Below, piece by piece: positions 27,702 through 42,363 of a DNA stretch of 64,000 nucleotides (positions are counted from its first letter, which is position 1; every line of letters begins with the position of its first letter). The DNA lies in the NCBI RefSeq assembly GCF_025143365.1, contig NZ_JALXPE010000004.1, positions 30,355-94,354 on the forward strand, in the 5' to 3' direction. The notes below the pieces were generated by a model that saw only the letters and a program-made list of their open reading frames with translations, was not told the origin of the DNA and made no database searches. A program made the translations under genes and the position numbers. The stretch is from Microbacterium sp. p3-SID336 (lineage in GTDB: Bacteria > Actinomycetota > Actinomycetes > Actinomycetales > Microbacteriaceae).

Positions 27702-28100
27702 TCAGGCCTCGCCGAGGTAGGCGACCCCCTGGATCTCGATCAGCGCCTCGGGTTGCCAGAGACGGCTGACGCCGATGCCGGCCATCGCCGGGTACTCGCT
27801 GCCCGCCATCTCGCGCCACCGCCGACCGATCTCCTTCCCGTGGCGCTGGTAGTCGTCGACGTCGACCAGGTAGATCGTCACGTCGATGAGGTCGCTCGGC
27901 CGGCCGCCGGCATGAGCGAGCGTGGTGAGCACGTTGCCGAACGCCTGCGTGAACTGCTCGACGATGCCGCCGGGGACGATGCGCCCGTCCTGATCCAGCG
28001 CGGTCTGTCCTCCGAGGTGGAGGAAGGGGCCGGCTTTCACGCCGTGCGCGAAGCCGATCGGCAGGCAGAGCTGTGGCGGGTTGATGATCTCGGCGGACAT
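27702..28100 (-). CDS. RidA family protein (enamine/imine deaminase)
   Basis: 132 residues of the RidA/YjgF/UK114 fold: LHLGGQTALDQDGRIVPGGIVEQFTQAFGN..., then VDVTIYLVDVDDY and the IEIQGVAYLG C-terminus. The catalytic Arg of classical RidA (IRAGNMVF..SGQ...P...R near 105) is not clear, so it may belong to a Rid4-7 type. It could hydrolyse imines from the FAD oxidase encoded downstream or deaminate an intermediate of the divergent aromatic cluster, as 2-aminomuconate deaminases do. ATG at 28100 has GGAG upstream; a longer open frame to 28436 is not coding. Confidence 0.85.
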   Translation of the reverse strand: MSAEIINPPQLCLPIGFAHGVKAGPFLHLGGQTALDQDGRIVPGGIVEQFTQAFGNVLTTLAHAGGRPSDLIDVTIYLVDVDDYQRHGKEIGRRWREMAGSEYPAMAGIGVSRLWQPEALIEIQGVAYLGEA

Positions 28101-28200: not shown

Positions 28201-29055
28201 ATGCACCTGGCGACACTCGTGGTGAGCGGCGGTGGCACGAGGGCGGCGGTGCGCCGCGGCGACGCCTGGCTGCTGCTGAATGCGACCGATGTGGGCGCAC
28301 TCATCCAGAGCCCCACCTGGCGCGACCAGGTCGCCGCCGCCGATGCGGATCGTCGTCCGTTCCTGGTCGCGCAGGCGGGTGCGGTGCTCGCGACCCCGGT
28401 GCCCCGCCCGGCGAAGGTGATCTGCTGCGGCCTCAACTACCGCGACCACATCCTCGAGACCGGGCGCGAGGAGCCGGAGTATCCGACGCTGTTCGCCAAG
28501 TACGCCGACACGCTGACCGGCCCGCGCGCCGAGATCCGGATCGACGGATCGTCTCGGGTGGACTGGGAAGCCGAGCTCGCGGTCGTGGTCGGCGACGCTG
28601 TCCGGAGGGTCACGCGGGAGGAGGCCAAGGCGGCGCTCCTCGGGTACGCCGTGGCCAACGACGTGTCCTGCCGCGACTGGCAGTCGCGCACTCTGCAGTG
28701 GTTCCAGGGCAAGGCGTGGGATCGCACCACACCGGTCGGACCGGTCGTGGTCACCGCCGACGAGGTCGACCCGAGCGAAGGCCTGCGGATCGAAGCCGAG
28801 ATCGGCGACGAACTGGTGCAGTCGAGCAATACGAGGGAGCTCGTCTTCGATGCCGCCGCGCTGGTGGCGTACATCTCGCAGTTCACCGCGCTCGCGCCCG
28901 GAGACATCGTGCTCACCGGGACGCCCGGCGGTGTCGGCATGGGTCGGGAGCCGCAGCGCTTCCTGCGGGACGGCGAGATCCTCCGCACCCGCATCGAGGG
29001 GATCGGGACGCTGGTCAACCGCATCCGCATCGCCTCCGCCGATTCCGAGGACTGA
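28201..29055 (+). CDS. Fumarylacetoacetate hydrolase (FAH) family protein
   Basis: 284 residues of the FAH fold, which cleaves C-C bonds of acylpyruvates using a divalent metal. Seen: GLNYRDHILETGR, the metal ligands in DWEAELAVVVG, YAVANDVSCRDWQSRTLQWFQGKAWD, QSSNTRELVFD and GDIVLTGTPGGVG. Candidate substrates are fumaryl-/maleylpyruvate or a hydroxymuconate derivative from ring cleavage. First gene of the forward catabolic operon; ATG at 28201 chosen because GGAG precedes it, rather than an open frame from 28081 that would read through the promoter. Confidence 0.88.
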   Translation: MHLATLVVSGGGTRAAVRRGDAWLLLNATDVGALIQSPTWRDQVAAADADRRPFLVAQAGAVLATPVPRPAKVICCGLNYRDHILETGREEPEYPTLFAKYADTLTGPRAEIRIDGSSRVDWEAELAVVVGDAVRRVTREEAKAALLGYAVANDVSCRDWQSRTLQWFQGKAWDRTTPVGPVVVTADEVDPSEGLRIEAEIGDELVQSSNTRELVFDAAALVAYISQFTALAPGDIVLTGTPGGVGMGREPQRFLRDGEILRTRIEGIGTLVNRIRIASADSED

Positions 29056-29064
29056 GGGGCTGAC

Positions 29065-29976
29065 ATGACCGACGCGACAGCCACCCCGGGGAACACCGAA
29101 GACGCCGGGCGGTTCCTCGCCGCGATCCGCTTGGCGGAGACCGAGCCGGAGATCTTCGACCGGGCGTTCCATGCGATGCCCCAGTACGTGCCGTGGCCGA
29201 AGGCCTACGGGGGCGATGCCATCGCACAGGCGGCCGCCGCGGCGCTCGCGACGGTCGAGGCGGACAGGCAGCTGCACTCGCTGCACAGCACCTTCCTCCG
29301 CCCGGTCCAGCCCGGGGAGCTGGTGCGCTACGAGGTCGAGCAGCTGCGCGACGGCCGAGGCTACTCGACGCGCCACGTGCGCGGGTACCAGGCGGGCAAG
29401 GCCGTGTTCCTGACGACGGCTTCGTTCCAGGTGCCGGAGCCCGGTCCGCGACGGCAGCCGACGATGCCCGATGTTCCGGCGCCCGAGGAGCTGCCCAGCA
29501 GCGCGGAAGCCCTCGCGCAGCTCGACGAGTCCGCGGCGACCGACTACTGGGCGCACGGTCGCAGCTTCGACGTGCGCCATGTCTCCTTGCCGCTGTACAC
29601 GAGCCAGACGCGGATGCCGGCGAACAGGAACGAGCGCGACGCGGCGTCGCAGGGCGTCTGGGTTCGCGCGTTCGAGGCGCTGCCTTCCGACGCCCGCATC
29701 CAGCAGCTGGCGCTCGCCTACGTCTGCGACTACACGATCCTGGAGCCGTCGCTGCGGGCCCTGGGCCTGGACTGGTCGTCGCCGACCCTGTTCACCGCCA
29801 GCCTCGATCACAGCATGTGGTTCCACCGGCCGGCCAGAGCCGATGACTGGCTGCTGTTCGCGCAGGAGAGCGCGGGAGTCGGCAGCGGGCGTGCGCTGGG
29901 TCTCGGTCGCTTCTTCACCCGGGGCGGCGATCTCGTCGCCACGGTCATGCAAGAGGGCGTCATCCGGCAGGGATGA
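29065..29976 (+). CDS. Acyl-CoA thioesterase II (TesB) family protein
   Basis: 303 residues with two tandem hot-dog units, as in TesB. VYGGDAIAQAAAAALATV-type sequence (YGGDAIAQAA here) marks the first and LTTASFQVPEPG its end, while the second half holds the conserved DHSMWFHRP and LLFAQESAGVGSGRALGLGRFF strands. Ten bases downstream of the FAH stop. In this operon it probably releases a hydroxylated aromatic acid from its CoA ester after the action of the fused oxygenase. Confidence 0.88.
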   Translation: MTDATATPGNTEDAGRFLAAIRLAETEPEIFDRAFHAMPQYVPWPKAYGGDAIAQAAAAALATVEADRQLHSLHSTFLRPVQPGELVRYEVEQLRDGRGYSTRHVRGYQAGKAVFLTTASFQVPEPGPRRQPTMPDVPAPEELPSSAEALAQLDESAATDYWAHGRSFDVRHVSLPLYTSQTRMPANRNERDAASQGVWVRAFEALPSDARIQQLALAYVCDYTILEPSLRALGLDWSSPTLFTASLDHSMWFHRPARADDWLLFAQESAGVGSGRALGLGRFFTRGGDLVATVMQEGVIRQG

Positions 29977-30024
29977 CGCCGACGGGGATGGGCGTCGCCC
30001 GGCGCAGGAGGAAAGGAACGGGCT

Positions 30025-32436
30025 ATGGGAATGAAGATCGCTGTCGTCGGCGGCGGACCGGGAGGACTCTACTTCTCGCTGCTGGCCAAGAGGCTCGATC
30101 CGAGCCACGAGATCACGATCTGGGAGCGCAACGCCCCCGATGACACCTTCGGATTCGGCGTGGTGTTCAGTGAGGAGACGCTCGGGGGCATTCGGAACGC
30201 GGATCCCGAGTTCTTCGCTGCGATGGAGGCCGGCATCGCCCGCTGGAAGGACCTGGACGTGCACTTCCGCGGCGAGACGCTGACGGTGGGCGGTCAGGGC
30301 TTCGCAGCGGCCAGTCGGAAGGAGCTGCTGCTGATGCTGCAGCGCCGGGCCGCAGAGCTGGGAGTGGCCATCCACTTCCGGACCACCGCGCCGGACGTGG
30401 ATGAGCTGGCGCGCGATCACGACCTCGTCGTGGCGGCGGACGGCATCAACTCCGCCGTCCGTGCGCGCTACGCCGAGAGCTTCCGTCCCACGCTCGATCC
30501 TCGGCGGTCGCGGTTCATCTGGCTCGGGCTGGATCGTGCGCTCGAGGCGTTCACGTTCCACGTCAAGCACACGCCGTGGGGCATCATGCAGGTGCACGCC
30601 TATCCGTACTCCGCGACCGAGAGCACGTTCCTCGTCGAGATGCACCAGGACATCTGGCGCGCGGCCGGGCTCGACGCCTCGGATGCTGCGAGCTTCCCTC
30701 CCGGGGTGAGCGATGACGCGTCGGTCGCCCGGATCGCCGAGATCTTCGCCGAGGAGCTCGCGGGTGCCACGCTTCTCACCAACAACTCCAAGTGGGTCAC
30801 GTTCCACACCGTGCGCAACGAGCGGTGGAGTCACGAGAACGTGGTGCTGATCGGTGACGCGGCGCACACGGCGCATTTCTCGATCGGCTCCGGCACCAAG
30901 CTCGCCCTCGAGGACGCGCTCGCGCTCGCCGCGAACCTGCAGGAGCGGCCCGGCGACCTGGGCGCGGCGCTCCGTGCGTACGAGGAGGAGCGTCGCCCGG
31001 TCGTCCTCTCGATCCAGCGCGCGGCCCAGGCGTCGCTCGAATGGTTCGAGAACATCGACCAGTACAAGGGCCAGGCCCCCGTCCCCTTCGCGTTCAACCT
31101 GCTGACACGATCGCGGCGCATCACGTTCGAGAACCTCCGGCTGCGCGATCCGGAGTTCGCGGAGCTGGTCCAGAGGGACTTCGCCGCGCGCCTCGGTACC
31201 GCGGATGCCCCCGCCATGTTCCAGCCGTGCCGGATCGGAGGGCTCGCGCTCGCGAACCGGATCGTGGTCTCGCCGATGGACCAGTACTCGGCGCAGGACG
31301 GGGTGGTCGGAGACCACCACCTCATCCATCTCGGCAGTCGGGCCGTGGGGGGCGCCGGGCTGGTGATGACCGAGATGATCGCCCCGTCCGCCGACGGTCG
31401 GATCAGTCCCGCCGATGCGGGGCTGTACACCGACGAGCAGCGCGATGCCTGGGCCCGGATCGTCGACTATGTGCACACGGCGACGGAGGCCAGGATCGGC
31501 GCGCAGCTCGGACACGCGGGCCGGAAGGGCTCGACCAAGCGGATGTGGGAGGGGATCGACGACCCTCTGGAGGACGGCGGGTGGGAGGTGGTCGGACCCT
31601 CGCCCCTGCCCTACGGGCCCGGTAGTCCGGTGCCGCGCGCTCTGGAGCGCGCCGACCTCGACCGCATCACGGCCGACTACGTGGCGGCTACTCGGCGCGC
31701 GGCGGAAGCCGGCTTCGACGTGCTGGAGCTTCACGCGGCCCACGGCTATCTGCTGTCCTCGTTCCTCTCCCCGCTGGCCAATCAGCGGCAGGACGAGTAC
31801 GGGGGCTCGCTGGAGAACCGCCTCCGCTTTCCGCTGGAGGTCTACGACGCCGTGCGTGCGGAATGGCCGAGCGATCGTCCCCTCCTCGTGCGCCTCTCGG
31901 CGACCGACTGGGCGGAGGGCGGGATCACCGACGACGACGCGGTGGAGATCGCGGCCGCCTTCATCGCGCACGGCGCCGACGGCATCGACGTGTCGTCGGG
32001 CCAGGTGGTGAAGCAGGAGCGGCCTCAGTACGGGCGGAGCTACCAGACGCCGTTCGCCGACAAGATCCGCAACCGCGTGGCGGCCGCGGCGGGAGTTCCG
32101 GTCATCGCCGTCGGCGCCATCTCGTCCTCCGACGACGTGAACTCGTTGCTCCTCGCCGGCCGCTGCGATCTCGTGGCGATCGGTCGGGGCCACCTCTACG
32201 ACCCCTACTGGACGCTGCACGCGGCTGCCGACCAGGGCTACGAGGGGCCGGCGGTCCGTTGGATCCCGCCGTACCGCGCGGGCCGACGCAAGCCTCCGAC
32301 GGCTCGGACGGATGCCGTCCGCCCCCGCCTCGAGCTGCTGCTCGATCCCGTCGTCGAGGACATCCACTCGCGGTGGATCGACGGCGAGACCGTCGCGGCG
32401 GGCGTCCGCTCGGCGGAGCTCGACCTTCAGCACTGA
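30025..32436 (+). CDS. Fused FAD monooxygenase / old-yellow-enzyme reductase acting on aryl-CoA (salicylyl-CoA 5-hydroxylase or 2-aminobenzoyl-CoA monooxygenase/reductase type)
   Basis: 803 residues in two flavoenzyme halves. Residues 1 to about 385 form a class A FAD hydroxylase, with IAVVGGGPGGLYFSLLAKR and the second FAD motif LIGDAAHTAHFSIGSG. From about residue 397 an FMN TIM-barrel of the NADH:flavin oxidoreductase family begins (MFQPCRIGGLALANRIV), with HAAHGYLLSSFLSPLANQR and DEYGGSLENR. This rare architecture is known from 2-aminobenzoyl-CoA monooxygenase/reductase and related proteins annotated as bifunctional salicylyl-CoA 5-hydroxylase. It needs an aryl-CoA substrate, yet no aryl-CoA ligase is encoded nearby. 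AGGAGGAAAGG precedes the ATG. Confidence 0.88.
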   Translation: MGMKIAVVGGGPGGLYFSLLAKRLDPSHEITIWERNAPDDTFGFGVVFSEETLGGIRNADPEFFAAMEAGIARWKDLDVHFRGETLTVGGQGFAAASRKELLLMLQRRAAELGVAIHFRTTAPDVDELARDHDLVVAADGINSAVRARYAESFRPTLDPRRSRFIWLGLDRALEAFTFHVKHTPWGIMQVHAYPYSATESTFLVEMHQDIWRAAGLDASDAASFPPGVSDDASVARIAEIFAEELAGATLLTNNSKWVTFHTVRNERWSHENVVLIGDAAHTAHFSIGSGTKLALEDALALAANLQERPGDLGAALRAYEEERRPVVLSIQRAAQASLEWFENIDQYKGQAPVPFAFNLLTRSRRITFENLRLRDPEFAELVQRDFAARLGTADAPAMFQPCRIGGLALANRIVVSPMDQYSAQDGVVGDHHLIHLGSRAVGGAGLVMTEMIAPSADGRISPADAGLYTDEQRDAWARIVDYVHTATEARIGAQLGHAGRKGSTKRMWEGIDDPLEDGGWEVVGPSPLPYGPGSPVPRALERADLDRITADYVAATRRAAEAGFDVLELHAAHGYLLSSFLSPLANQRQDEYGGSLENRLRFPLEVYDAVRAEWPSDRPLLVRLSATDWAEGGITDDDAVEIAAAFIAHGADGIDVSSGQVVKQERPQYGRSYQTPFADKIRNRVAAAAGVPVIAVGAISSSDDVNSLLLAGRCDLVAIGRGHLYDPYWTLHAAADQGYEGPAVRWIPPYRAGRRKPPTARTDAVRPRLELLLDPVVEDIHSRWIDGETVAAGVRSAELDLQH

Positions 32437-32481
32437 CCACGGGGCGCGCAGCGCTCCACCGACCTCGACGAGGAGACCATC

Positions 32482-33255
32482 ATGCAGAACGCCAACGCCC
32501 TCGCCGCCGCTCTGGCGGCCGGGACCATCCGGATCATCGACCTGACCAATCCGCTGTCGTCGGAGACCCCGACGCTGCGGCTGCCCGAGCCGTTCGCCAA
32601 CCTGATCGACTTCCGGCTGGAGGAGGTGAGCCGGTTCGACGAGCGCGGCCCGTTCTGGATGCATCACAACATCCACACGGGCGAGCACATCGGCACCCAC
32701 CTCGATGCTCCCGTGCACTGGATCACCGGGAAGGACGGTCACGACGTCGCGAGCATCCCGCCGTCCCGCCTGGTGGGCCCGGCGGCGGTGCTCGACGTCA
32801 CCGCTCAGGTCGCCGAGAACCCCGACTACCTGGTGACGGTCGACGACATCCGGGCCTGGGAGGCTCAGCACGGAGCGTTGCCCGAGAACGGCTGGCTGCT
32901 GCTGCGGACGGGATGGGACCGGTTCGCGCAGGACAGGGAGGCGTTCCTCAACATCGATGGGACCGGCTCGCACACGCCGGGGATGACGGCCGAGACGGCG
33001 AGGTGGCTGGCCGAGGAGACGGCGATCTCCGGCGTCGGCGTCGAGACGGTCGGCATCGATGCGGGTCGCGGCGCGGAGCTGGATCCGCCCTTCGCCGCGC
33101 ATCACCACCTCCTGGGCAACGACAAGTACGGCATCACGTCGCTGCAGAACCTCCGTGCGCTTCCCGCGACGGGCGCCGTCATCGTGGTCGCGCCCCTGCC
33201 GATCGTCGGCGGAGGGGGAAGCCCCGCGCGGGTGTACGCGCTGGTCGACGCCTGA
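32482..33255 (+). CDS. Cyclase family metal hydrolase (kynurenine formamidase / isatin hydrolase type)
   Basis: 257 residues. HIGTHLDAPVH at 69-79 is the H-x-G-T-H-x-D-x-P-x-H metal-binding motif of this family, followed by a later catalytic His in FAAHHHLLGND. Characterised members open amide or lactam bonds, namely N-formylkynurenine (KynB) and isatin (isatin hydrolase, giving isatinate). In a cluster with a 2-oxoacid oxidoreductase, the isatin reaction is attractive because isatinate is an aryl-2-oxoacid; this is inference. GAGGAG ribosome site; 45 bases after the oxygenase gene. Confidence 0.85.
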   Translation: MQNANALAAALAAGTIRIIDLTNPLSSETPTLRLPEPFANLIDFRLEEVSRFDERGPFWMHHNIHTGEHIGTHLDAPVHWITGKDGHDVASIPPSRLVGPAAVLDVTAQVAENPDYLVTVDDIRAWEAQHGALPENGWLLLRTGWDRFAQDREAFLNIDGTGSHTPGMTAETARWLAEETAISGVGVETVGIDAGRGAELDPPFAAHHHLLGNDKYGITSLQNLRALPATGAVIVVAPLPIVGGGGSPARVYALVDA

Positions 33256-33272
33256 CGGCACGGTCGAGGTCG

Positions 33273-34034
33273 ATGAGCGACACCCTGCACTCGCTGACGA
33301 AGGCCCTGGAGGTGCTGCACCTTCTGCGTGCTCAGGGGCCGATGCGTCTGTGCGACATCGCGAGCGCCGTCGGGGTCGGCCGGTCGACGGCGCACCGGCT
33401 GCTCTCGACGCTGCGGGAGCAGCGGTTCGTCCGCCAGGAGGTCGGCGGGCGGCGCTACGAGCTCGGCACGGCGATGCTGTTCTCCTCGACCGTCTCGGCG
33501 CTGGAGCATTGCGTGACGGTGAGCCGCGAGGCGATGAACGACCTGCAGCGTTCGACGGGCGAGACCGTGCATCTGACGGTGCTGCGCGGCGGGGTCTGCC
33601 TCTGCGCCGCGAGTGTGCAGTCCGGACGCCCCGGCACCGTCCCGAGCAGGGTCGGGCAGTTGCTTCCGGCGCGACGGACGGCGGGCGGAAAGGTGCTCCT
33701 GGCCGCCCTCGACCCTGCCCGCCGGGCGGAGCTGCTGCGCCCGGACGATACGGACCCTGTGGGGGTCGACGGCGGCGCTCTGGAGGAGGAGCTGCGGCGC
33801 GTTCGCGAGCTCGGCTACGCGCGGAACCTCGGGGAGTCCGAGAGCCGCATGTACGCTCTGGCCGTGCCGATCCGGCGCCCGAGCGGAGATGTCGTCAGCA
33901 GTCTCACGGTCGCGCTGCCGCTCGACCGGGTGGGGTCGCGCCCGCGGGGCGCGGTGCTGAGCGATCGTGAGGAGGCGCTGCTCCATGGGCTGCGCGATGC
34001 GGTGGCGAGGATCGAGCCCCTGTTGGCCTACTGA
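33273..34034 (+). CDS. IclR family transcriptional regulator
   Basis: 253 residues. N-terminal winged helix: LHSLTKALEVLHLLRAQGPMRLCDIASAVGVGRSTAHRLLSTL...FVRQ, with the effector domain following (ETVHLTVLRGG, LLPARRTAGGKVLLAAL, GYARNLGESESRMYALAVPI). IclR members of this kind control aromatic-acid operons. It lies 18 bp after the hydrolase gene, in the operon it probably controls. The direct repeats upstream of the FAH gene are a candidate site. Confidence 0.92.
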   Translation: MSDTLHSLTKALEVLHLLRAQGPMRLCDIASAVGVGRSTAHRLLSTLREQRFVRQEVGGRRYELGTAMLFSSTVSALEHCVTVSREAMNDLQRSTGETVHLTVLRGGVCLCAASVQSGRPGTVPSRVGQLLPARRTAGGKVLLAALDPARRAELLRPDDTDPVGVDGGALEEELRRVRELGYARNLGESESRMYALAVPIRRPSGDVVSSLTVALPLDRVGSRPRGAVLSDREEALLHGLRDAVARIEPLLAY

Positions 34035-34065
34035 CCGCCCGGATGTCCCGCCATGCGGAACGCCC

Positions 34066-34094
34066 GCGGCCGTGCGCGGGGGCCGCCATACACT
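34066..34094 (+). terminator. Hairpin after iclR, followed by a possible promoter
   Basis: GCGGCC (34066-34071) and GGCCGC (34081-34086) form a short GC stem with a 9-base loop. TACACT (34089-34094) directly after it could be the -10 of the cupin gene, which would then have a leader of about 70 bases. Confidence 0.4.
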
Positions 34095-34169
34095 CGGGGC
34101 ACCATCCGGCCGCGATGCAGCGTGACGGCGTCCGCCTTCCGCTGCGCGGCCCGTCGAAAGGACATCATC

Positions 34170-34616
34170 ATGACCGGCATCGATCCCCTCGGGCGCCCGT
34201 TCAAGCGCATCAGCGTGCAGCGCGGGAACGAGCTGCCGCTCGCGCCTGGACAGACCGCGAAAGCGAAGCGCTACTCGGGCGTCGCGGTCGAGAACACCGC
34301 TGTCGTCGACCTCTGGTTCGGTCGAGTGCACACGGCGGTCGGCGAGCACTCCGACCCCCACCACCACGGTGAGGCCGAGACCGGCGGCTACGTGCTGCGC
34401 GGCCGTGGGTACATCCGCTTCGGGGAACGGTACTCCGAGGTCATGTACTTCGAGGAGGGCGACTTCGTGTACGTGCCTCCGTTCGTGCCGCACATCGAGG
34501 GCAACGCCAGTCGGTCGCGCGAGCTCGTGTGGCTCACCACGCGCACGCCGGACAACATCGTGGTCAACCTCACCGACCAGGATGTGGCCGACATCGAGCT
34601 CGACATCGCCGACTGA
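34170..34616 (+). CDS. Small single-domain cupin protein
   Basis: 148 residues with both cupin motifs. Motif 1 is G-E-H-S-D-P-HHHGEAETGGYVLRG (two His and one Glu metal ligands), and motif 2 is GDFVYVPPFVPHIEGN (fourth ligand His). All four metal ligands are present, so it is likely an Fe/Mn enzyme or an isomerase rather than only a binding protein. It is far shorter than gentisate 1,2-dioxygenase (about 350-390 residues, bicupin), but small cupins such as 3-hydroxyanthranilate dioxygenase do cleave rings. The ATG at 34170 has GAAAGGA upstream. Confidence 0.8.
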   Translation: MTGIDPLGRPFKRISVQRGNELPLAPGQTAKAKRYSGVAVENTAVVDLWFGRVHTAVGEHSDPHHHGEAETGGYVLRGRGYIRFGERYSEVMYFEEGDFVYVPPFVPHIEGNASRSRELVWLTTRTPDNIVVNLTDQDVADIELDIAD

Positions 34617-34657
34617 GGGGCGGTCGACGACGGCGCTGCTCCGAGGGCGTGTGCGGC

Positions 34658-34672
34658 ATCGCGAACTGCGAT
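34658..34672. promoter_or_regulatory. Possible operator before paaX
   Basis: ATCGC-GAACT-GCGAT is a 5-bp-arm dyad inside GCATCGCGAACTGCGATATGC, followed by an AT-containing stretch with a possible -10 (TAGAGT near 34681). It lies about 110 bases before the PaaX start. Confidence 0.3.
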
Positions 34673-34789
34673 ATGCCGCTAGAGTACGAGGGCTGTCGGC
34701 CCGGGGGGCGTCCGCGAGTGACCAACCCGCGGAGGGCGTTCCCGGAGTGGCGGGGGCCGCGGCGTACACCCGAAGGAGTCGAACGCCGG

Positions 34790-35665
34790 ATGAACTCGAA
34801 CGTCTCGCGCACTCTCCTCGTCACCCTTCTCGGGGCCTTCGCGAGGCGGACCGAGGACTGGATGCCGGTGAAGGGCATCGTCACGCTCCTGGATGCGCTC
34901 GACGTCGACGAGTCCAGTGTCCGCACCGGGGTGTCGCGGCTGAAGAGCCGCGGGTGGCTGGTGCCCGAGAAGCGGGATGACAGGAACGGCTACCGACTCA
35001 CCGAGGTCGCGAAGGCCTCCCTCGCCTCCGGCGACGAGGTGATCTGGCACGCTCGGCAGCCGGCGCTGATGGAAGACGGCTGGTGCATCGCCACCTTCTC
35101 CGTGCCGGAAGAGCTGCGCGCCAAGCGACACCGCCTGCGGGGGCGGCTGCTGGCGCTCGGCTTCGGCAATCTGGGGCAGGGGGTGTGGATCGCGCCGGCG
35201 CGGATGGCGGCAGAGGCGATCGATCTCGTCGACGAGCTGGAGCTGAGGGACAACACCACGGTGCTCGTCGGGCAGCACGTCGGCGGTCAGGAGCTCTCCC
35301 GCATGGTGCGCGAGAGCTGGGACCTCGACGCGATCGACGAGGGCTACCGGACTTTCATCGGTCGACATCACGCGGCGCTCGAGGGGCTGGAGCGCGCACA
35401 TCCCGATGACGTACCTCCGCGCGACGCGTTCACCCTCTACATGCGGGCGCTCGACGACTGGCGTGTGCTTCCCATGCGCGATCCCGGCCTTCCGCCCGAG
35501 CTGCTGCCGGGCGACTGGTCCGGTCGCCGTGCGGTGCAGCTGATCGAGCAGATCGTGACGCGGCTGGAGCCGGCGGCGCTGGCCTACGTGCGTGGGGTCG
35601 TCAGCGGCGGGGACCGCAAGGCGACGGCCGTGCGTGGCTCCGGGGCAGCCGCCGCCCTGCGCTGA
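34790..35665 (+). CDS. PaaX family transcriptional regulator
   Basis: 291 residues with a winged helix (LLVTLLGAFARRTEDWMPVKGIVTLLDALDVDESSVRTGVSRLKSRGWL pattern, given here in parts: SSVRTGVSRLKSRGWLVPEK) and the PaaX C-terminal domain (HARQPALMEDGWCIATFSVPEE, FGNLGQGVWIAPAR, YRTFIGRHHAALEGL, DWRVLPMRDPGLPPELLPGDW). PaaX repressors respond to aryl-CoA esters such as phenylacetyl-CoA, so this one may sense the aryl-CoA of this pathway. AAGGAG lies 12 bases before the ATG, a long gap, so a slightly different start is possible. Confidence 0.9.
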   Translation: MNSNVSRTLLVTLLGAFARRTEDWMPVKGIVTLLDALDVDESSVRTGVSRLKSRGWLVPEKRDDRNGYRLTEVAKASLASGDEVIWHARQPALMEDGWCIATFSVPEELRAKRHRLRGRLLALGFGNLGQGVWIAPARMAAEAIDLVDELELRDNTTVLVGQHVGGQELSRMVRESWDLDAIDEGYRTFIGRHHAALEGLERAHPDDVPPRDAFTLYMRALDDWRVLPMRDPGLPPELLPGDWSGRRAVQLIEQIVTRLEPAALAYVRGVVSGGDRKATAVRGSGAAAALR

Positions 35666-35915
35666 GAACCTCCGTCGCTCACGCCGCGCCGGTCGCTCAC
35701 GGCGCTTGCGCCGCTGGGGCTGTCCCCATCACTTGCGGCGCTTGCGCCGCTGACGGTGTCCCCGTCGCTGGCGCCGCGACTCATCGCCGCATGCCGTCGC
35801 CGGCCGCATGCCATCGCCTCGCCGCACGGCTGTGGCGCATCGACGGGCCGCACGCCCGCGCCGCGACCTGCCGTCGGCGCGAAGAGCACGGCGTCGCAGG
35901 CGAGCCGTATTACAG
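35666..35915. other. Non-coding stretch between paaX and the iorA promoter
   Basis: The 334 bases between paaX and iorA contain no credible gene. They hold a 36-bp tandem repeat (35701-35766), degenerate GCC/GGC-rich flanks, and then the iorA promoter. Open frames across it on either strand are repeat- and Arg-rich and lack any recognisable feature. Confidence 0.5.
35701..35766. repeat. Two 36-bp-period direct repeats with a stable hairpin core
   Basis: GGCGCTTGCGCCGCTG begins at 35701 and again at 35737. In each copy it is followed by a four-base variable part and TGTCCCC(A/G)TC. Each copy contains GGCG-CTTG-CGCC, a tight hairpin with a CTTG tetraloop. A weaker third partial copy (CGCTGGCGCCGCGACTC) follows. 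It may work as a tandem terminator after paaX or be a short dispersed-repeat unit. Confidence 0.65.
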
Positions 35916-35947
35916 TTTGCCGACGGTCGATGTGAATTTGATATAGT
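35916..35947 (+). promoter_or_regulatory. iorA promoter with extended -10 and shared GACGGTCGA box
   Basis: TGATATAGT (35939-35947) is an extended -10 (TG-n-TATAGT). GACGGTCGA lies at 35922-35930, exactly as far from the -10 as the same box in the FAH promoter. The -35 match is poor (TTTGCC at 35916-35921, 20-bp spacer), which suits an activator-dependent promoter. The region is AT-rich locally. Confidence 0.55.
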
Positions 35948-35999
35948 CACGGAGGCGGGTTCTGTTCTCGACGTCGATGAAGACGAGGAAAGGCGAATC

Positions 36000-38174
36000 A
36001 TGGCAGAGCGTTCATTCGTCAACGAGGTCAAGGTCCTCCGTGAGGGGGCGGGGGCGTCGCTTCATGTCGAGGGCATTCTGGCGGTGACCAAGGCGCTGCT
36101 CGAATCCGGGGTCTCCTACGTCGGCGGCTACCAGGGCGCGCCCATCTCGCATCTGATGGACGTGCTGGGGGACGCCCGCGAGATCCTCGGCGATCTCGAC
36201 GTCTACTTCGAGAACTCCGCGTCCGAGGCCACCGCCGCCGCGATGCTGGCCGCATCCGTGCACTACCCGATGCGGGGCGCCGTCACGTTCAAGTCCACCG
36301 TCGGACTGAACGTCGCCTCCGACGCGCTGGCGAATCTGTCCAGCGGCGGCGTCACCGGAGGAGCGCTCGTCATCCTCGGCGAGGACTACGGCGAGGGATC
36401 GAGCATCATGCAGGAGCGCTCGCACGCCTTCGCGATGAAGTCGCAGATGTGGCTGCTCGATCCCCGGCCGAACATCGGCGCCATCGTGGACGCCGTCAAG
36501 CACGGGTTCGCGCTGTCCGAGGCGAGCAGCACTCCGGTCATGCTCGAGCTGCGGCTGCGCTCGTGCCACCTCCAGGGGTCCTTCGTCGCCGCCGACAACC
36601 GACGGCCCACGATGACGATCCGCGACGCGGTCGAGCACCCGGAGCGCGATCTGAGCCGCATCGTGCTCCCGCCCGCGAGCTTCGCGCACGAGAAGGAGAA
36701 GGTGGAGGCGCGATGGCCCGCCGCGGTCGAGTACATCCGCGAACACCAGCTCAACGAGTTCTTCGACGGAGAAGTGGAAGACGTCGGCATCATCGTGCAG
36801 GGCGGCCTGTACAACACCCTGATTCGCGGTCTCGAACTGCTCGGCCTCTCCGACGTCTTCGGGAACGCGCGCGTCCCGCTCTACGTGATGAACGTCGCAT
36901 ACCCCGTCATCGAGGATGAGGCGCGGCGCTTCTGCGTGGGGAAGAAGGCGGTGCTGCTGCTGGAGGAGGGGCAGCCCGACTACATCGAGCAGAACCTGCA
37001 CGCCATCCTCCGCAAGGCCGGCATCGACACGGCGCTGCACGGGAAGGATCTGCTGCCGATGGCAGGCGAGTACACGACACAGGTGGTCACGGCGGGGCTC
37101 GCGCAGTTCCTGCGGCGGTATGTGCCGGAGGTCGCTCTGGCAGAGCCTGCGCTCCTGCGGCCGGCCGATGACCCCGCGAGTCCCTTCGCCCCGCGGGTCG
37201 ATGCCCGCCAGGTGCACGCGCGTCCGCCCGGGCTGTGCACGGGATGCCCGGAACGTCCGATCTTCAGCGCACTGAAACTCGCGGAGCGCGAGACGGGCCA
37301 GGCCCACCACGTGAGCATGGACATCGGCTGCCACCTCTTCGGTATCAACGAGCCGTTCAACCTCGGCGGCACCACCATGGGATACGGCCTCGGTTCCGCC
37401 GCAGCGGCCGCCCTGAATGCGGAGGGCGCGGATCGCCCGACGATCGCAGTGATGGGAGACGGCGGGTTCTGGCACAACGGCCTCACCAGCGGCGTCGGCA
37501 ACGCCGTGTTCAACCAGAACGACCAGGTGCTCGTCGTCGTCGACAACTCGTACGCGGCCGCCACCGGAGGTCAGGACCTGCTCTCGTCGTACGGACAGGC
37601 CGAGGTGTCCGGCCGGTCGTCTCGTCACCCGATCGAGCGGGCTGTACGCGGCATCGGGGTGCGCTGGGCCAAGACCGTGACGCACACCTACGACGTGAGC
37701 CGGCTGAAGAAGGTCTTCCTCGAGGCGTTCACCGCGACCGAGAAGGGTCCGAAGGTCGTCGTCGCTCAGAGCGAGTGCCAGCTGAACGCCCAACGCCGGA
37801 TCAAGAAGCAGGTGCAGCAGGACGTAGCCGCGGGGAAGAGGGTCGTGCGCCAGCGCTTCGGCGTGGACGCGGAGACCTGCACCGGTGATCACGCCTGCAT
37901 CCGCATCTCCGGCTGTCCTTCGCTCACCCTGACCGACAATCCCGACCCCCTGCGCACCGACCCCGTCGCGACCGTGATCGACAGCTGTGTCGGATGCGGG
38001 GTGTGCGGCGCCAACGCGCATGCCGCCTCTCTGTGTCCGTCCTTCTACCGCACCGATGTTGTCATCAACCCCCACTGGGGTGACCGGGTGCTCGGTGCGG
38101 TGCGAAGCGCGTGGATCGCGGCGCTGTCGGCTCCCGTCGAACGTCGTGCGCGCGGGTACGAGGTCGCCGCATGA
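36000..38174 (+). CDS. iorA: Indolepyruvate ferredoxin oxidoreductase-like protein, alpha subunit
   Basis: 724 residues. An N-terminal pyrimidine-binding/transketolase-like domain (VGGYQGAPISHLMDVL, GALVILGEDYGEGSSIMQERSHAFA) is followed by the TPP domain with PGLCTGCPERPIF and GDGGFWHNG (Asp487). The C-terminal ferredoxin domain has CTGDHACIRISGCP from Cys627 and CVGCGVCGANAHAASLCP from Cys663. These enzymes decarboxylate aryl-2-oxoacids to aryl-(acyl-)CoA and reduce ferredoxin. No dedicated ferredoxin gene is seen. AGGAAAGG precedes the ATG at 36000; it overlaps the beta gene by 4 bp. Confidence 0.9.
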   Translation: MAERSFVNEVKVLREGAGASLHVEGILAVTKALLESGVSYVGGYQGAPISHLMDVLGDAREILGDLDVYFENSASEATAAAMLAASVHYPMRGAVTFKSTVGLNVASDALANLSSGGVTGGALVILGEDYGEGSSIMQERSHAFAMKSQMWLLDPRPNIGAIVDAVKHGFALSEASSTPVMLELRLRSCHLQGSFVAADNRRPTMTIRDAVEHPERDLSRIVLPPASFAHEKEKVEARWPAAVEYIREHQLNEFFDGEVEDVGIIVQGGLYNTLIRGLELLGLSDVFGNARVPLYVMNVAYPVIEDEARRFCVGKKAVLLLEEGQPDYIEQNLHAILRKAGIDTALHGKDLLPMAGEYTTQVVTAGLAQFLRRYVPEVALAEPALLRPADDPASPFAPRVDARQVHARPPGLCTGCPERPIFSALKLAERETGQAHHVSMDIGCHLFGINEPFNLGGTTMGYGLGSAAAAALNAEGADRPTIAVMGDGGFWHNGLTSGVGNAVFNQNDQVLVVVDNSYAAATGGQDLLSSYGQAEVSGRSSRHPIERAVRGIGVRWAKTVTHTYDVSRLKKVFLEAFTATEKGPKVVVAQSECQLNAQRRIKKQVQQDVAAGKRVVRQRFGVDAETCTGDHACIRISGCPSLTLTDNPDPLRTDPVATVIDSCVGCGVCGANAHAASLCPSFYRTDVVINPHWGDRVLGAVRSAWIAALSAPVERRARGYEVAA

Positions 38175-39808
38175 GCGCCCCGGTCGCAGCGGCCCGCCCG
38201 ATCACCGTCGCGATCCTCGCGATGGGCGGCGAGGGAGGCGGTGTCCTCGCGGACTGGATCGTCGACGTGGGCGAGGAGGCGGGTTACACGACGCAGAGCA
38301 CGTCCGTCGCCGGTGTCGCTCAGCGCACGGGCGCGACGGTCTACTACGTCGAGCTCTTCCCGAAGAGCCAGGCTCCCGCGCCGGGCAGTGCGCGGACGGA
38401 GCCGGTGCTGAGTCTGTTCCCCGCACCGGGGGACGTGGATGTCGTGATCGCCTCCGAGCTCATGGAGGCCGGACGCGCGGTGCAGCGCGGGTTCTGCACG
38501 CCCGATCGCACCACCCTCATCGTCTCGACGAATCGCGTCTACGCCATCAGCGAGAAGATCGCCCTGGGTGACGGCCGGGTGGAGTCGGCGAGCCTGCTGG
38601 ATGCGGCGCGAGCGGGTGCCCGGACGCTCATCGCGGCCGATTTCAACGAGATGGCCCTTCAGGAGGGCAGCGTCATCTCCTCGTCGCTGTTCGGCGCGTT
38701 CGCGCGATCGGGCGCGCTTCCCCTCACGCGCGAGCGGTTCGAGGAGGCGCTGCGACGCTCGGGGAAGGCCGTCGATCGGTCGCTCGCAGCGTTCGCCCGC
38801 GGGTTCGAGGGGGCCGACGAGGCCGTCCAGGCCGAGCAGGCGCAGGCGGCGACGCCGCCGCCGAAGGGGCTGGGGCCGGTCCGCGTCACGATCGGCCGCC
38901 GTCCGCCGGAAGACCCGCGGAAGGCCGCAGCGGACGCGGAAGCGGCACGGCATCGTGAACTCGCCGTCACCGACCCCCGAGCCCTGGTCGGTCCGCGGCT
39001 CGCCGGTCGGATGGACGCGGTCGCGCGGTTCCCCGAGGCGGCGCGTTCGATGCTGATCCACGGCTGCGTGCGCACGGCGCTCTACCAGAACCTGGCCTAC
39101 ACCGACCTGTACCTCTCGCGGGTGGCCGGGGTGGCGCGCATCGACGCCGAGCGCGGGGGCGACGAGGCCGCGCTCACCGTCGAGACCGCCCGCCACGCGG
39201 CACTCTGGATGTCGTACCAGGACACGATCCAGGTCGCCCACCAGAAGCTCCGCGCGCGCCGGCTGGACGGTGTGCGGTCCGAGGCGAAGGCGACCGAGGG
39301 GCAGCTCACCCAGATCCGCGAGTTCCTCCACCCTCAACTCGACGAGATCACCGCGATGCTGCCGGCGGCACTGGGGGCGGCGCTGTCCCGCTCGCGACCG
39401 TTCGCGAAGCTCGTGGCCGCCATCACCCGCAACGGCATGATCCTGAACACGACCTCGGTGGTGGGCTACGGCGCGCTCTGGCTGCTGGCGGCGCTGAGAC
39501 CCATCAGGCCCCGATCGCTGCGATTCGGACAGGAGCAGAACGCGATCGAGGCGTGGTTGGCCCTGATCGCCGAGACGGCAACCGTCGACTACGCGCTGGC
39601 GTGCGAGGTGGCACGCTGCGCCCGGGTGCTCAAGGGGTACGGGCAGACGCATGAGCATGGCTCGCAGAGCTTCGCCGTGCTGATGGACTGCGCGCGGCGA
39701 CTCGTGGGCACCGCGGGGGCGGCGGAGACCCTGGCGGGGCTCTCGACGGCGGCCATGGCGGATGAGGACGGTGCCGCGCTGACGCTGGCGGTGTCGCGGC
39801 TGCCGTGA
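38171..39808 (+). CDS. iorB: Indolepyruvate oxidoreductase beta-subunit family protein, long form
   Basis: 545 residues, against about 200 for the archaeal beta subunit. The first 190 residues form the gamma-type domain (MGGEGGGVLADWIVDVGEEAGYTTQS, AQRTGATVYYVELFP, VVIASELMEAGRAVQRGF). The rest is a helical extension with HGCVRTALYQNLAYTDLYL, HAALWMSYQDTIQVAHQKLRA and a Tyr-Gly-Gln-Thr-His-E-H segment, seen in aerobic-bacterial versions. The extension may shield the cluster or bind an alternative electron acceptor; its role is unknown. Coupled to iorA by ATGA. Confidence 0.87.
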   Translation: MSAPVAAARPITVAILAMGGEGGGVLADWIVDVGEEAGYTTQSTSVAGVAQRTGATVYYVELFPKSQAPAPGSARTEPVLSLFPAPGDVDVVIASELMEAGRAVQRGFCTPDRTTLIVSTNRVYAISEKIALGDGRVESASLLDAARAGARTLIAADFNEMALQEGSVISSSLFGAFARSGALPLTRERFEEALRRSGKAVDRSLAAFARGFEGADEAVQAEQAQAATPPPKGLGPVRVTIGRRPPEDPRKAAADAEAARHRELAVTDPRALVGPRLAGRMDAVARFPEAARSMLIHGCVRTALYQNLAYTDLYLSRVAGVARIDAERGGDEAALTVETARHAALWMSYQDTIQVAHQKLRARRLDGVRSEAKATEGQLTQIREFLHPQLDEITAMLPAALGAALSRSRPFAKLVAAITRNGMILNTTSVVGYGALWLLAALRPIRPRSLRFGQEQNAIEAWLALIAETATVDYALACEVARCARVLKGYGQTHEHGSQSFAVLMDCARRLVGTAGAAETLAGLSTAAMADEDGAALTLAVSRLP

Positions 39809-39845
39809 CCGTCGCGAGGGGGCCGCGGCGTGCTCGGGAAGGGCT

Positions 39846-40796
39846 TCAGTGCAGCAGTGCGGACGGCAGGACGCGGAACCGCTGCGCGAAGTAGGCCGCG
39901 AAGCGTCCCGTATGGGGGATGCCGACCTCCGCGGCCACCGCGCTCACCGTGAGAGTGCCCGCGGCGGCGGAGTGGGCGGTGTGCCTCTGGAGCAGGTGCC
40001 ACGAACGATCGAGCCGCGCGTCGCGCAGGTACTGCTGGGCGGTGCAGCCGAGGTGGGCGCGGAACGCGAGTTGGAGCTGACGCGTCCCGATCCCGACGGT
40101 GTCTCCGAGATCGGCGAGAGTCAGCGGATCGGCGAGGTGACGATGCAGGTGTCGGAGGGCAGGGGTGAGATAGGGCGGAGGGGTCGCCCAATCGACGGCG
40201 CCGCCGTCCCGGAAGCGGACGAAACTGCTGAGGCCCGTCAGCAGAGTGTCGACGAGGTCGGCCGGGTCGCCGCCCTGAACGGTGGCGAAGGAGTGCCAGG
40301 TGCGATGCAGTGCTCGCGCGGCGTTCAGGTCGAGGGGCCGTCGGTGAGAGAGGTCGAGCGTCATCTCCCGCTCGGTGCCGAAGAGGTCCCTCAGGAGTGC
40401 GACGAGGGTGCCCAGGTCGACGGCTCCGACCAGGGCACCCGCGTCCGGATCCGGGAGCATCGTGGTGTCCGATGCCGCCGACAGCACGAACGGCGTCGTG
40501 CGGGTCTCCCGGTGACCGGCGACCTCCACCGTCATCGGCCCGAGCGGCACGACCAGCACCACATGACCGGCGGCGGCGGGTGCGATCACCCGCACCGGCG
40601 TGGCGTACGCCACATACACGAGCGACAGTTCGTCGAACCGCCCGCCGTTCACCACCCCGTGCCGTCGAGCAGCGGCCACAGGCTCCCGCGTCACGACCAG
40701 GTGGTCGTACCCGATGAGGTCGCCGACGGCGTCGCGCAGGCGCGAGGGGTCCTCCGCGCGCTCGACGGGGTATGCGGACAGCGGGCGGGCCGTCAT
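39846..40796 (-). CDS. AraC family transcriptional regulator
   Basis: 316 residues with an AraC-binding-like N-terminal domain and a C-terminal double helix-turn-helix: LTLADLGDTVGIGTRQLQLAFRAHLGCTAQQYLRDARLD, then VSAVAAEVGIPHTGRFAAYFAQRF (given in pieces no longer than the motif core). It is two bases after the luciferase-like monooxygenase gene, so they share a transcript. Family members of this type (AraC-binding-like, FeaR/NbaR group) usually activate aromatic-degradation genes. Convergent with iorB. Confidence 0.9.
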   Translation of the reverse strand: MTARPLSAYPVERAEDPSRLRDAVGDLIGYDHLVVTREPVAAARRHGVVNGGRFDELSLVYVAYATPVRVIAPAAAGHVVLVVPLGPMTVEVAGHRETRTTPFVLSAASDTTMLPDPDAGALVGAVDLGTLVALLRDLFGTEREMTLDLSHRRPLDLNAARALHRTWHSFATVQGGDPADLVDTLLTGLSSFVRFRDGGAVDWATPPPYLTPALRHLHRHLADPLTLADLGDTVGIGTRQLQLAFRAHLGCTAQQYLRDARLDRSWHLLQRHTAHSAAAGTLTVSAVAAEVGIPHTGRFAAYFAQRFRVLPSALLH

Positions 40797-40798
40797 GG

Positions 40799-41905
40799 TC
40801 AGCGGCGCGGCGGCCGCACGCCCATCCGTTCGAGGATCGGCATGACCTCCCTGCCGAATCGCGTGACCTCGGTCGTGTAGTCGACGAACGCGAGGGTCAT
40901 CCCGTCCAGGCCGGCGTCGCTCACCGCGCGGATCTGCTCCGCCACATCATCCGGGGTGCCGATCACCGGGAGCGAGCCATGGCCGGATGCGAAGCGCTCG
41001 CGCATGCTCTGCAGCATCTCCGGCGTGAACGACTGGGCATGCATCCCCTGCAGCCCCATCAGGTAGTCGACCGCTCCCCAGTCCGCGTTCTGCTCCGCGT
41101 AGTACGCGAGGTAGTCCTCCGCCTCCGCCCTGCTCTCGCGGCAGACGACGTGGCTCAGCGTCAGGACGCCGACGTTGCGGTCGTAGCGCGCACGCGCATC
41201 CTCCTTGAGCGTCCGCGCGATCTCGGCGCCGGCGGTGACATCTGGGATCACGGTGAAGGCGAGGTCGGAGAAGTGCGCCGCGAAGTCCCGCCCCTGCGGC
41301 GAGGACCCGGCGTTCAGCACGGGCACGCGGCCGCCGCGCGGCTTCGGCTCGGACTCCGCGTCCTTCAGGTGGTAGAACGCGCCGTTGTACGTGAACGTGC
41401 CCTCGGTGCTCCAGGCGCGGTTCACCACGTCCAGCCACTCGGCCGCGAAGGCGTACCGGTCGTCGTGCGCCTCCGGCATCGGCGCGCCGAGCGCCTCGTA
41501 CTCGGGGAGGTTCCACCCGGCGACGACGTTCAGGCCCGCGCGACCGCCGCCGCCGAGCTGGTCGAGGGTCGCGAGCTGCTTGGCGATCACCATCGGGTGG
41601 TTGAAGGCGGTGTGGATCGTGGAGAACACGCTGATCCGTCGGGTGCTCGCGAGGAGCGCCGCCGCCCAGACGATCGGATCGAGCACGGATCCGTGGAAGT
41701 TGGTCTCGCCCTTGTAGCCGATGAAGCGGGCGATCGGGAGGAGGAAGTCGATGCCCGCCTCCTCGGCGGCCTGCGCCATCGCCAGGTTGTCCTCCCAGCT
41801 GGCGCTCCAGCGTTCGGGGATCGTGGTCACGGCGAGCCCGCCGGAGCAGTTGGCGGAGAAGAGTCCGAGCTTGAAGCCGTCGCCGTTGAGGATGTCGCGC
41901 GTCAT
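40799..41905 (-). CDS. LLM-class (RutA/EmoA/DszA-like) FMNH2-dependent monooxygenase
   Basis: 368 residues of the luciferase-like TIM-barrel. FLLPIARFIGYKGETNFHG, SVFSTIHTAFNHP, QLGGGGRAGLNVVAGWNLPEYEALG and FTYNGAFYHLKDAESEPKP match group C two-component monooxygenases of the RutA, EmoA, NtaA and DszA type. Such enzymes open N- or S-heterocycles or attack C-N bonds using FMNH2. It overlaps the flavin-reductase gene (ATGA), which supplies reduced flavin. The substrate is unknown; its place next to the aryl-2-oxoacid genes hints at a heteroaromatic precursor. Confidence 0.87.
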   Translation of the reverse strand: MTRDILNGDGFKLGLFSANCSGGLAVTTIPERWSASWEDNLAMAQAAEEAGIDFLLPIARFIGYKGETNFHGSVLDPIVWAAALLASTRRISVFSTIHTAFNHPMVIAKQLATLDQLGGGGRAGLNVVAGWNLPEYEALGAPMPEAHDDRYAFAAEWLDVVNRAWSTEGTFTYNGAFYHLKDAESEPKPRGGRVPVLNAGSSPQGRDFAAHFSDLAFTVIPDVTAGAEIARTLKEDARARYDRNVGVLTLSHVVCRESRAEAEDYLAYYAEQNADWGAVDYLMGLQGMHAQSFTPEMLQSMRERFASGHGSLPVIGTPDDVAEQIRAVSDAGLDGMTLAFVDYTTEVTRFGREVMPILERMGVRPPRR

Positions 41906-42363
41906 GATTGTCCGTTCGTCGAGGGGTGATGGTTGTCGGGATGGAGGATCAGGGTCGGTCGGCCGATCATGAGGTCGTGATCGCCGACGGTCACGCGCTG
42001 GTGGAGCAGGCAGTCGAACCGGGTCGGCAGCGACGGGAACACGGGGTCGCCGAGCGCATTGCGTTCGAACGTCAGGTCGGCGAACTTGTCGCCGCCCTTC
42101 TGCGCGAACACCCGCGCCAGCGGATGGTCGAGGGGTCGAGCCAGCGGCGGGAAGATGTGCAGGGCGTACGACGTGATGGAGCGCCAGCCCACGATGGACG
42201 TCGAGCCGTGGTCGACCGCCCAGCTCAGCAGCGGGGGCTCCATCGACAGGGACGCGAACGAGTTGCAGACCAGGCCGATCGGCGCGCCGTCCGCATCGAC
42301 GGCAGTCACCAGGCAGAGCCCCGCCTGCCAGTACCGCATCGCGGCCTTGAAGTCTTCGCGCAC
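41902..42363 (-). CDS. Flavin reductase (NADH:FMN oxidoreductase, HpaC/RutF family)
   Basis: 153 residues of the flavin reductase-like split-barrel: MRYWQAGLCLVTAVDADG, LVCNSFASLSMEPPLLSWAVD, FAQKGGDKFADLTFE and the metal/NAD-site H-D-L-M-I-G-R C-terminal strand. It delivers FMNH2 to the monooxygenase encoded next. It is first in the minus-strand operon flavin reductase-LLM-AraC. The GTG at 42363 has AGGAAAGGAG upstream. Confidence 0.88.
   Translation of the reverse strand: MREDFKAAMRYWQAGLCLVTAVDADGAPIGLVCNSFASLSMEPPLLSWAVDHGSTSIVGWRSITSYALHIFPPLARPLDHPLARVFAQKGGDKFADLTFERNALGDPVFPSLPTRFDCLLHQRVTVGDHDLMIGRPTLILHPDNHHPSTNGQS

Follow-up and report, generated by a model that had tools for sequence, protein, structure and literature searches.

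Phenylglyoxylate:acceptor oxidoreductase, in the anaerobic breakdown of mandelate and phenylalanine, converts an aryl-2-oxoacid and coenzyme A (CoA) into an aryl-CoA ester without a ligase; this enzyme differs from the system considered here in host organisms, subunit make-up, and oxygen setting. The system in question is a gene island at positions 28201–42363 of a 64-kb stretch of Microbacterium sp. p3-SID336 DNA (contig NZ_JALXPE010000004.1, positions 30,355 to 94,354; hereafter the window), and is probably, as judged from its genes and their relatives, a unit for the catabolism of isatin (indole-derived) that supplies the known actinobacterial 2-aminobenzoyl-CoA module with no CoA ligase involved. 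Two kinds of described loci are closest to it. The modules on pAL1 of Arthrobacter Rue61a (L002) and pRLCBG43 of Rhodococcus BG43 (L006) contain, like the window, genes for RidA, an FAH-family hydrolase, a small cupin, TesB, a fused monooxygenase/OYE reductase, and PaaX, and additionally encode an AMP-binding ligase of the anthranilate-CoA type; the expressed Rue61a ligase activates anthranilate (PMC3534580). The iad loci of Variovorax, Achromobacter, and Bradyrhizobium, and of Ruegeria and Azospirillum plasmids, share with the window IorAB and an isatin-hydrolase/KynB-family gene, and the Azospirillum plasmid has the monooxygenase/OYE fusion too. IorA/IorB, there called iadA/iadB, are described as exclusive markers of iad-like loci, with no role given in the consulted part of PMC9613470, and a further member of these loci, IadI, carries the annotation kynurenine formamidase (PMC12633357).

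Compared with these systems, the island lacks the ligase of the pAL1 and pRLCBG43 modules: a tblastn search with three CoA ligases (from pAL1, Tsukamurella, and Azospirillum) gave no match at E ≤ 1e-3 within the window, which bears out the first-pass annotation, made from the sequence, in its statement that no acyl-CoA ligase is encoded in the island. Conversely, isatin hydrolase, IorAB, and the LLM-class monooxygenase, all present in the window, have no relative in the pAL1 and pRLCBG43 stretches. Unlike the iad loci, the window has the LLM monooxygenase/flavin reductase pair and the regulators IclR, PaaX, and AraC. A member of the iad family with indole-3-acetic acid (IAA) as substrate is an improbable identity for the island: the marker status of IorAB, the occurrence of iac/iad loci in five phyla including Actinobacteria (PMC9613470), and the formamidase annotation of IadI would fit it, whereas neither the Rieske alpha subunit or IadF-type ligase of Azospirillum nor the thiolase of Ruegeria or its SDR encoded next to isatin hydrolase has a relative in the window at E ≤ 1e-3 (IadE was not searched), and Variovorax cannot break down IAA without iadDE (PMC9613470). 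Every gene named in the first-pass annotation, including those for the three regulators and the two-component monooxygenase, is an open frame with a family match; that inventory had overlooked the divergent RidA gene beside the FAH gene. The features are as follows.

27702..28100, minus strand: RidA/YjgF-family enamine/imine deaminase (PF01042, E 3e-20)
28201..29055, plus strand: FAH-family C–C hydrolase (PF01557, FAA_hydrolase, E 4e-65)
29065..29976, plus strand: TesB-type acyl-CoA thioesterase (PF02551, Acyl_CoA_thio; TIGR00189, 215.3 bits)
30025..32436, plus strand: fused aryl-CoA monooxygenase/OYE reductase of the 2-aminobenzoyl-CoA monooxygenase/reductase type (NF006101)
32482..33255, plus strand: predicted isatin hydrolase, KynB/cyclase fold (Pfam Cyclase; PDB relatives)
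33273..34034, plus strand: IclR-family regulator (PF01614, PF09339)
34170..34616, plus strand: small cupin of one domain, metal motif intact (PF07883, Cupin_2)
34790..35665, plus strand: PaaX-family regulator (PF07848/PF20803/PF08223)
36000..38174, plus strand: IorA, thiamine pyrophosphate (TPP)- and Fe–S-dependent 2-oxoacid oxidoreductase alpha subunit (PF02775; TIGR03336 below cut-off)
38171..39808, plus strand: IorB, long-form beta subunit carrying DUF6537 (NF006179; PF01558, PF20169)
39846..40796, minus strand: AraC-family regulator (PF12833, HTH_18)
40799..41905, minus strand: LLM-class flavin mononucleotide (FMN)-dependent monooxygenase, SfnG/RutA-like (PF00296, Bac_luciferase)
41902..42363, minus strand: flavin reductase, probably partnered with the LLM monooxygenase (PF01613, Flavin_Reduct)

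The genes of IorA/IorB and of the LLM monooxygenase/flavin reductase overlap by 4 bp each. Most of this gene set is found again in other genomes, and the island is therefore not a chance assembly.

In the proposed pathway, the two-component FMN monooxygenase might oxidise an indolic compound, yielding isatin or an immediate precursor of isatin, and isatin would be opened to isatinate (2-aminophenylglyoxylate) by isatin hydrolase. IorAB would then convert isatinate and CoA by oxidative decarboxylation into 2-aminobenzoyl-CoA; this would save the ATP that a ligase spends and yield ferredoxin, or an equivalent carrier, in reduced form. By its family, the fusion protein would produce 5-hydroxy-2-aminobenzoyl-CoA and then dearomatised 2-amino-5-oxocyclohexene-carboxyl-CoA; RidA would presumably hydrolyse the enamine with release of ammonia, and the cupin, the FAH hydrolase, and TesB may bring about, in whatever order, C–C ring cleavage and acid release. 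The core of this series, from isatin hydrolase through IorAB to the aryl-CoA monooxygenase/reductase, had been put forward in the first-pass annotation and finds support in genomic context.

Among PDB entries, the four closest to the KynB-family protein are all isatin hydrolases (E 5.8e-64 to 1.9e-75). In the Labrenzia enzyme, His69, His73, and Asp75 are the Mn ligands, and His79, His207, and Asp193 are catalytic (PMC6117287); all six are kept in the window protein (Labrenzia numbering), and in the order His69, His73, Asp75, His79, His207, and Asp193 they are conserved in 84, 86, 86, 86, 83, and 86, respectively, of 86 aligned rows, some of which represent one gene present in two loci. Position 219 is Thr in 71 of the 86 rows, including the window protein, and not Glu as in KynB. 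Family membership thus argues strongly that the window protein would open isatin to isatinate. IorB clearly belongs to NF006179 (PRK08312; 640.6 bits against a cut-off of 348). IorA scores 279.4 bits against TIGR03336, the indolepyruvate equivalog of the alpha subunit, far under the cut-off of 650.9, and has the GDG...DN (TPP) and TGGQ motifs and 13 Cys residues, 12 of which are invariant across all 23 aligned sequences. Its 17 relatives, from Actinobacteria to Roseobacters, are 57–84% identical to the window protein. A PDB sequence search with IorA gave no relative at 1e-5, and its predicted structure (mean pLDDT, 49.1; pTM, 0.36; 17 similar rows) was not used.

The genomic context of IorAB strongly suggests that it would act as an isatinate oxidoreductase forming 2-aminobenzoyl-CoA. 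When co-occurrence, a check suggested in the first-pass annotation, was surveyed in 296 genomes of the class (cut-offs: IorA, E ≤ 1e-100; isatin hydrolase, E ≤ 1e-50), IorA was found in seven and isatin hydrolase in 47, and all seven were among the 47 (P 1.7e-6), but six of the seven are related genomes of 2.0–2.4 Mb that group together in trees, so that these statistics overstate independence. The spread of the pair over Nocardioidaceae, Skermania, Tsukamurella, G093, and several proteobacteria offsets this kinship in part. Both genes lie on one contig within 15 kb in six of the seven. In a sample of 249 genomes of the family, which has one genome (G204) in common with the class sample, IorA occurs once (G093), among the 11 genomes with isatin hydrolase; the isatin-hydrolase contexts cover nine of these 11, leaving aside the weakest two (37% identity) among 12 matches. 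On plasmids, 40 of 50 IorA records contain isatin hydrolase, at ≤25 kb from IorA in 39 and at ≤5 kb in 18 (best isatin-hydrolase place per record only), against 10.4 and 2.5 expected for random placement on those 40 records, although many of the records are near-copies from Sulfitobacter. In a Novosphingobium and a Paracoccus record (L118 and L120, the latter ending ~0.5 kb past isatin hydrolase, so that one flank only is visible), IorAB and isatin hydrolase are neighbours, and neither the ring-cleavage genes nor the others of the island were found; the substrate of IorAB is therefore most simply the product of the hydrolase. Finally, among 80 loci with a relative of the fusion protein, the best of at least 589 and thus a sample leaning to the kin of the window, five have IorAB, and all five have isatin hydrolase.

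A second TPP-dependent enzyme takes the place of IorAB in many other actinobacterial loci. Two more of the 80 loci have isatin hydrolase together with a TPP-dependent decarboxylase-like gene instead of IorAB, and a further two have such a gene but no isatin hydrolase at the threshold. Immediately beside isatin hydrolase, the decarboxylase-like gene is present at 37 of 41 loci from IorA-negative genomes (40 fetched and G204; one of the four lacking it, L143, is truncated by the end of its contig) but in none of the seven IorA genomes (Fisher 4.5e-6). Searched whole, 10 of 12 genomes with IorAB gave no decarboxylase match at E ≤ 1e-60, the others being G004 (38%) and G093 (69%), and in the family sample the pair of isatin hydrolase and decarboxylase without IorAB was found in eight of nine genomes followed; the window contains no relative of the decarboxylase. 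The enzyme is acetolactate-synthase-like (for example L010:14925-16577, minus strand, and the neighbours of isatin hydrolase in L125–L162), and the L010 protein falls under the cut-off for all 25 NCBIfam families listed. Like the window, these pairs have isatin hydrolase beside a 2-oxoacid-type TPP enzyme; they differ in that this enzyme is decarboxylase-like rather than a CoA-dependent oxidoreductase, and in that the aryl-CoA module was not found in most of the stretches. The replacement of one 2-oxoacid-type TPP enzyme by the other beside isatin hydrolase fits a shared substrate, isatinate, and makes the decarboxylase-like protein a candidate isatinate decarboxylase that would give 2-aminobenzaldehyde, encoded beside isatin hydrolase in many actinobacteria.

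These associations also bear on the possibility that IorAB acts on indole-3-pyruvate or another arylpyruvate to form indoleacetyl-CoA from tryptophan-derived indoles, with isatin hydrolase serving a later step. The family name, the similarity to TIGR03336 (279 bits), and aminotransferase genes a few kb from IorAB in L004, L119, and L121 speak for such a role, which we nevertheless consider unlikely: the TIGR03336 cut-off is missed by far, no aminotransferase is among the annotated genes of the window island, L118 and L120 pair IorAB with isatin hydrolase without other island genes, and in genomes without IorA the neighbour of isatin hydrolase is the decarboxylase-like TPP enzyme.

IorAB occurs without an anthranilate-CoA-type ligase in the window and in four other stretches (L018, L078, L042, and L004); homologous islands therefore do not all carry a ligase, as they would if that enzyme performed the activation step throughout. 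Among the 58 monooxygenase loci longer than 20 kb, to which the test was restricted, the ligase is absent from three of five with IorAB and from four of the 53 others (Fisher 0.010); in all 80 loci, the corresponding figures are 3/5 with IorAB and 11/75 without it. The IorAB islands occupy at least four places in the monooxygenase tree, namely the window with G093, beside ligase-bearing Microbacterium loci; a Pimelobacter/Nocardioides group (L018/L019/L078), likewise beside ligase-bearing loci; a cluster formed by small genomes; and L003 and L004, which are plasmids of proteobacteria. The claim that IorAB stands instead of a ligase is thus supported by context, while some IorAB islands keep the ligase. 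Because three actinobacterial islands (L001, L019, and L076) and G410 hold both and G093 has a ligase module nearby, replacement of the ligase by IorAB is not strict.

Several observations weigh against the proposed ligase-free isatin unit, beside the kinship of the small genomes and the Sulfitobacter near-copies. The islands just named with both IorAB and a ligase belong here, as do the nearby second, ligase-bearing module and the decarboxylase of G093, the ligases elsewhere in the genomes G001, G003, G488, G522, and G530, and L010, where the LLM gene and isatin hydrolase occur with decarboxylase and ligase instead of IorAB. The characterised isatin hydrolases have a GLQC or GLAS motif with Gln or Ala at position 219, whereas the window protein has GITS (Thr219–Ser220). 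Ten of the 50 IorA plasmid records have no isatin hydrolase at the cut-off and one more has it 361 kb away; no monooxygenase/OYE gene was found in seven proteobacterial IorAB plasmid stretches (L118–L124, 26–40 kb); and among the genes noted in the island, none is for a ferredoxin. In addition, RidA may serve the unit next to it (25712-27608, minus strand), which encodes an FAD oxidoreductase of the DAO type together with an Lrp/AsnC regulator. The last point comes from Variovorax CL014, in which the nine-gene set iadC-K2 restored anthranilate formation in a whole-locus deletion (extent given in PMC9613470) and C7H7NO was detected (PMC12633357); since iadC-K2 without iadA/iadB suffices, a route from isatinate to anthranilate that bypasses IorAB is available, and the IorAB of iad loci may serve a parallel route or another purpose.

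The same results leave some room for a different division of labour, in which IorAB acts on a 2-oxoacid formed after ring cleavage, or isatinate is converted otherwise to free anthranilate, and a ligase elsewhere activates the latter as in Rue61a, which would make the island an ordinary one. Several IorAB genomes do hold a ligase elsewhere, a ligase outside the window is possible in the source genome, and anthranilate forms without iadA/iadB in Variovorax (PMC12633357). Such an arrangement is nonetheless improbable, given the pairing of IorAB with isatin hydrolase in L118 and L120, where ring-cleavage genes were not found, and the lack of a TPP decarboxylase relative in the window. Moreover, in a whole-genome search of ten IorAB genomes, the ligase was matched at E ≤ 1e-60 in seven and not in G002, G439, and G470, negatives to be read with the fact that no completeness figure accompanies these three assemblies; in G002, no ligase match exceeds 30% identity.

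G093 deserves separate description, as its window-like IorAB module and its ligase module lie less than 10 kb apart on contig C6 (~26-86 kb). The ligase module has its own isatin hydrolase, and the IorA of this genome is identical to a protein (P0009) recorded under the name Alpinimonas psychrophila.

Extended beyond the window, the proposal reads that the IorAB lineage of Actinobacteria and proteobacterial iad loci is an isatinate oxidoreductase of aerobic indole and auxin catabolism, recruited several times in place of the ligase, while other actinobacteria would use a TPP-dependent isatinate decarboxylase. We offer this wider reading tentatively, with its chances just short of even, and our confidence in it, as in the ligase-free unit of the window, was lowered because Variovorax makes anthranilate without iadA/iadB (PMC12633357). 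If true, it would give a function to iadA/iadB, auxin-locus markers with no step assigned in the consulted parts of PMC9613470 and PMC12633357, would name two enzymes for the fate of isatinate, and predicts a ligase-free entry of isatin into an aryl-CoA pathway. In the open-licence literature, as far as its accessible parts extend, no assignment of isatinate to IorAB was found; the portion of PMC10374108 available mentions neither iadA, iadB, nor isatin, and that of PMC12633357 neither iadA nor iadB. The system had been called undescribed, which holds for the joining of its parts but not for the parts themselves, the lower module (PMC3534580), IorAB in iad loci (PMC9613470), and IadI (PMC12633357) being known. 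As far as the literature was searched, what is new is the joining of the parts without a ligase, the reaction proposed for IorAB, and the LLM variant of actinobacteria.

The lower part of the island is, by sequence comparison, the known actinobacterial anthraniloyl-CoA module minus its anthranilate-CoA ligase, because its fusion protein has 68% identity with the pAL1 counterpart and shares with it a supported group of 27 rows (99*) in the tree. The fusion protein consists of FAD_binding_3 and Oxidored_FMN domains and scores 1174.8 bits against NF006101 (cut-off 1078), a family named bifunctional salicylyl-CoA 5-hydroxylase/oxidoreductase. That name would agree with a series from 2-hydroxyphenylglyoxylate through salicylyl-CoA to gentisyl-CoA, once held to be equally open; the grouping with the pAL1 protein, from a module with a verified anthranilate-CoA ligase (PMC3534580), the absence of a gentisate-type bicupin relative from the window, and the presence of isatin hydrolase and RidA, which point to a nitrogen compound, make it very unlikely.

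For the steps that would follow 2-aminobenzoyl-CoA hydroxylation and reduction, the family assignments are less specific. The FAH gene has 2,4-didehydro-3-deoxy-L-rhamnonate hydrolase as its best NCBIfam match, under the cut-off, and the TesB score against TIGR00189 is likewise under its cut-off of 292.85. The cupin has an invariant PHHHGEAE motif and second-motif histidine in all six aligned sequences; its best PDB match has an E of 0.029, and no reaction was assigned to it. The RidA gene is divergent from the FAH gene at a distance of 100 bp in the window; both genes are present in 25 of 88 stretches examined, and are divergent and less than 1 kb apart in 20 of the 25. Among the 80 loci, 23 have small-cupin modules (with RidA in 22, TesB in 23, and FAH in 20), and six have modules of a gentisate-type bicupin, a nitrilase-like enzyme, and FAH, with RidA in none; no locus has both cupin types at the thresholds used, L023 having a 36% bicupin match below threshold. 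The Caballeronia bicupin scores under the cut-offs for gentisate and 5-aminosalicylate dioxygenases. We take the bicupin version to proceed by cleavage of free 5-hydroxyanthranilate to an amide and hydrolysis of this amide by the nitrilase-like enzyme, and the small-cupin version of the window presumably to involve deamination of the enamine CoA ester by RidA, followed by C–C ring opening. Our reading of the latter order agrees with the CoA esters of Rue61a, whose anthranilate-grown cells contain a presumed hydroxyanthraniloyl-CoA and a C7H8O4-CoA ester (PMC3534580).

A ring-opening dioxygenase of free 5-hydroxyanthranilate was also considered as a role of the small cupin. It is disfavoured by the growth data of Rue61a, which does not grow on 5-hydroxyanthranilate according to PMC3534580, and by the finding that, at the thresholds used, small cupin and bicupin do not occur together in any of the 80 loci. 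The order first proposed, with release by TesB preceding cupin ring opening, loses its footing on the same growth data, as Rue61a has the same module, and on the overlooked RidA, which points to enamine hydrolysis, perhaps on the CoA ester.

Three Roseobacter and Shinella plasmid stretches (L119, L121, and L124) combine iad-like genes and IorAB with a thioesterase, a nitrilase-like enzyme, FAH, a dioxygenase of the gentisate type, and an Asp/Glu racemase. A monooxygenase/OYE fusion that could account for 5-hydroxylation was not found in these stretches. In a plasmid stretch of Variovorax sp. PBS-H4 (L005), matches to IorA and IorB are flanked by two IS1071 transposase genes, and neither isatin hydrolase nor the aryl-CoA module was found in it.

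Upstream of isatin, relatives of the LLM monooxygenase (E ≤ 1e-90) occur in six of the 296 class genomes, five of which are among the seven with IorA, and at ≥50% identity in five of the 80 loci, all five with isatin hydrolase and four with IorAB; because of this co-occurrence, the enzyme looks like a component of the system. The solved structures closest to it are SfnG and RutA, dimethylsulfone and pyrimidine monooxygenases, and a protein search returned general names only. Neither isatin hydrolase nor IorAB was found around rhizobial LLM relatives (L178 and L179) or in G433. The LLM monooxygenase and its flavin reductase might act upstream on some indolic compound, towards isatin. Other islands have carotenoid-desaturase-like flavoproteins, an SDR, or another flavin monooxygenase instead or additionally, so that isatin hydrolase appears to be the common end point of several upstream routes. 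One or two of the carotenoid-desaturase-like flavoproteins, which perhaps serve upstream indole oxidation, are encoded near isatin hydrolase and IorAB in L042, G410, G439, G470, G488, G522, G530, and L122.

With regard to regulation, an AraC relative adjoins the LLM gene in L010, L042, G093, G410, G439 (contig C19), G522, and G530. A possibly regulatory 36-bp unit is repeated 2.2 times at 35700-35777, between the genes of PaaX and IorA.

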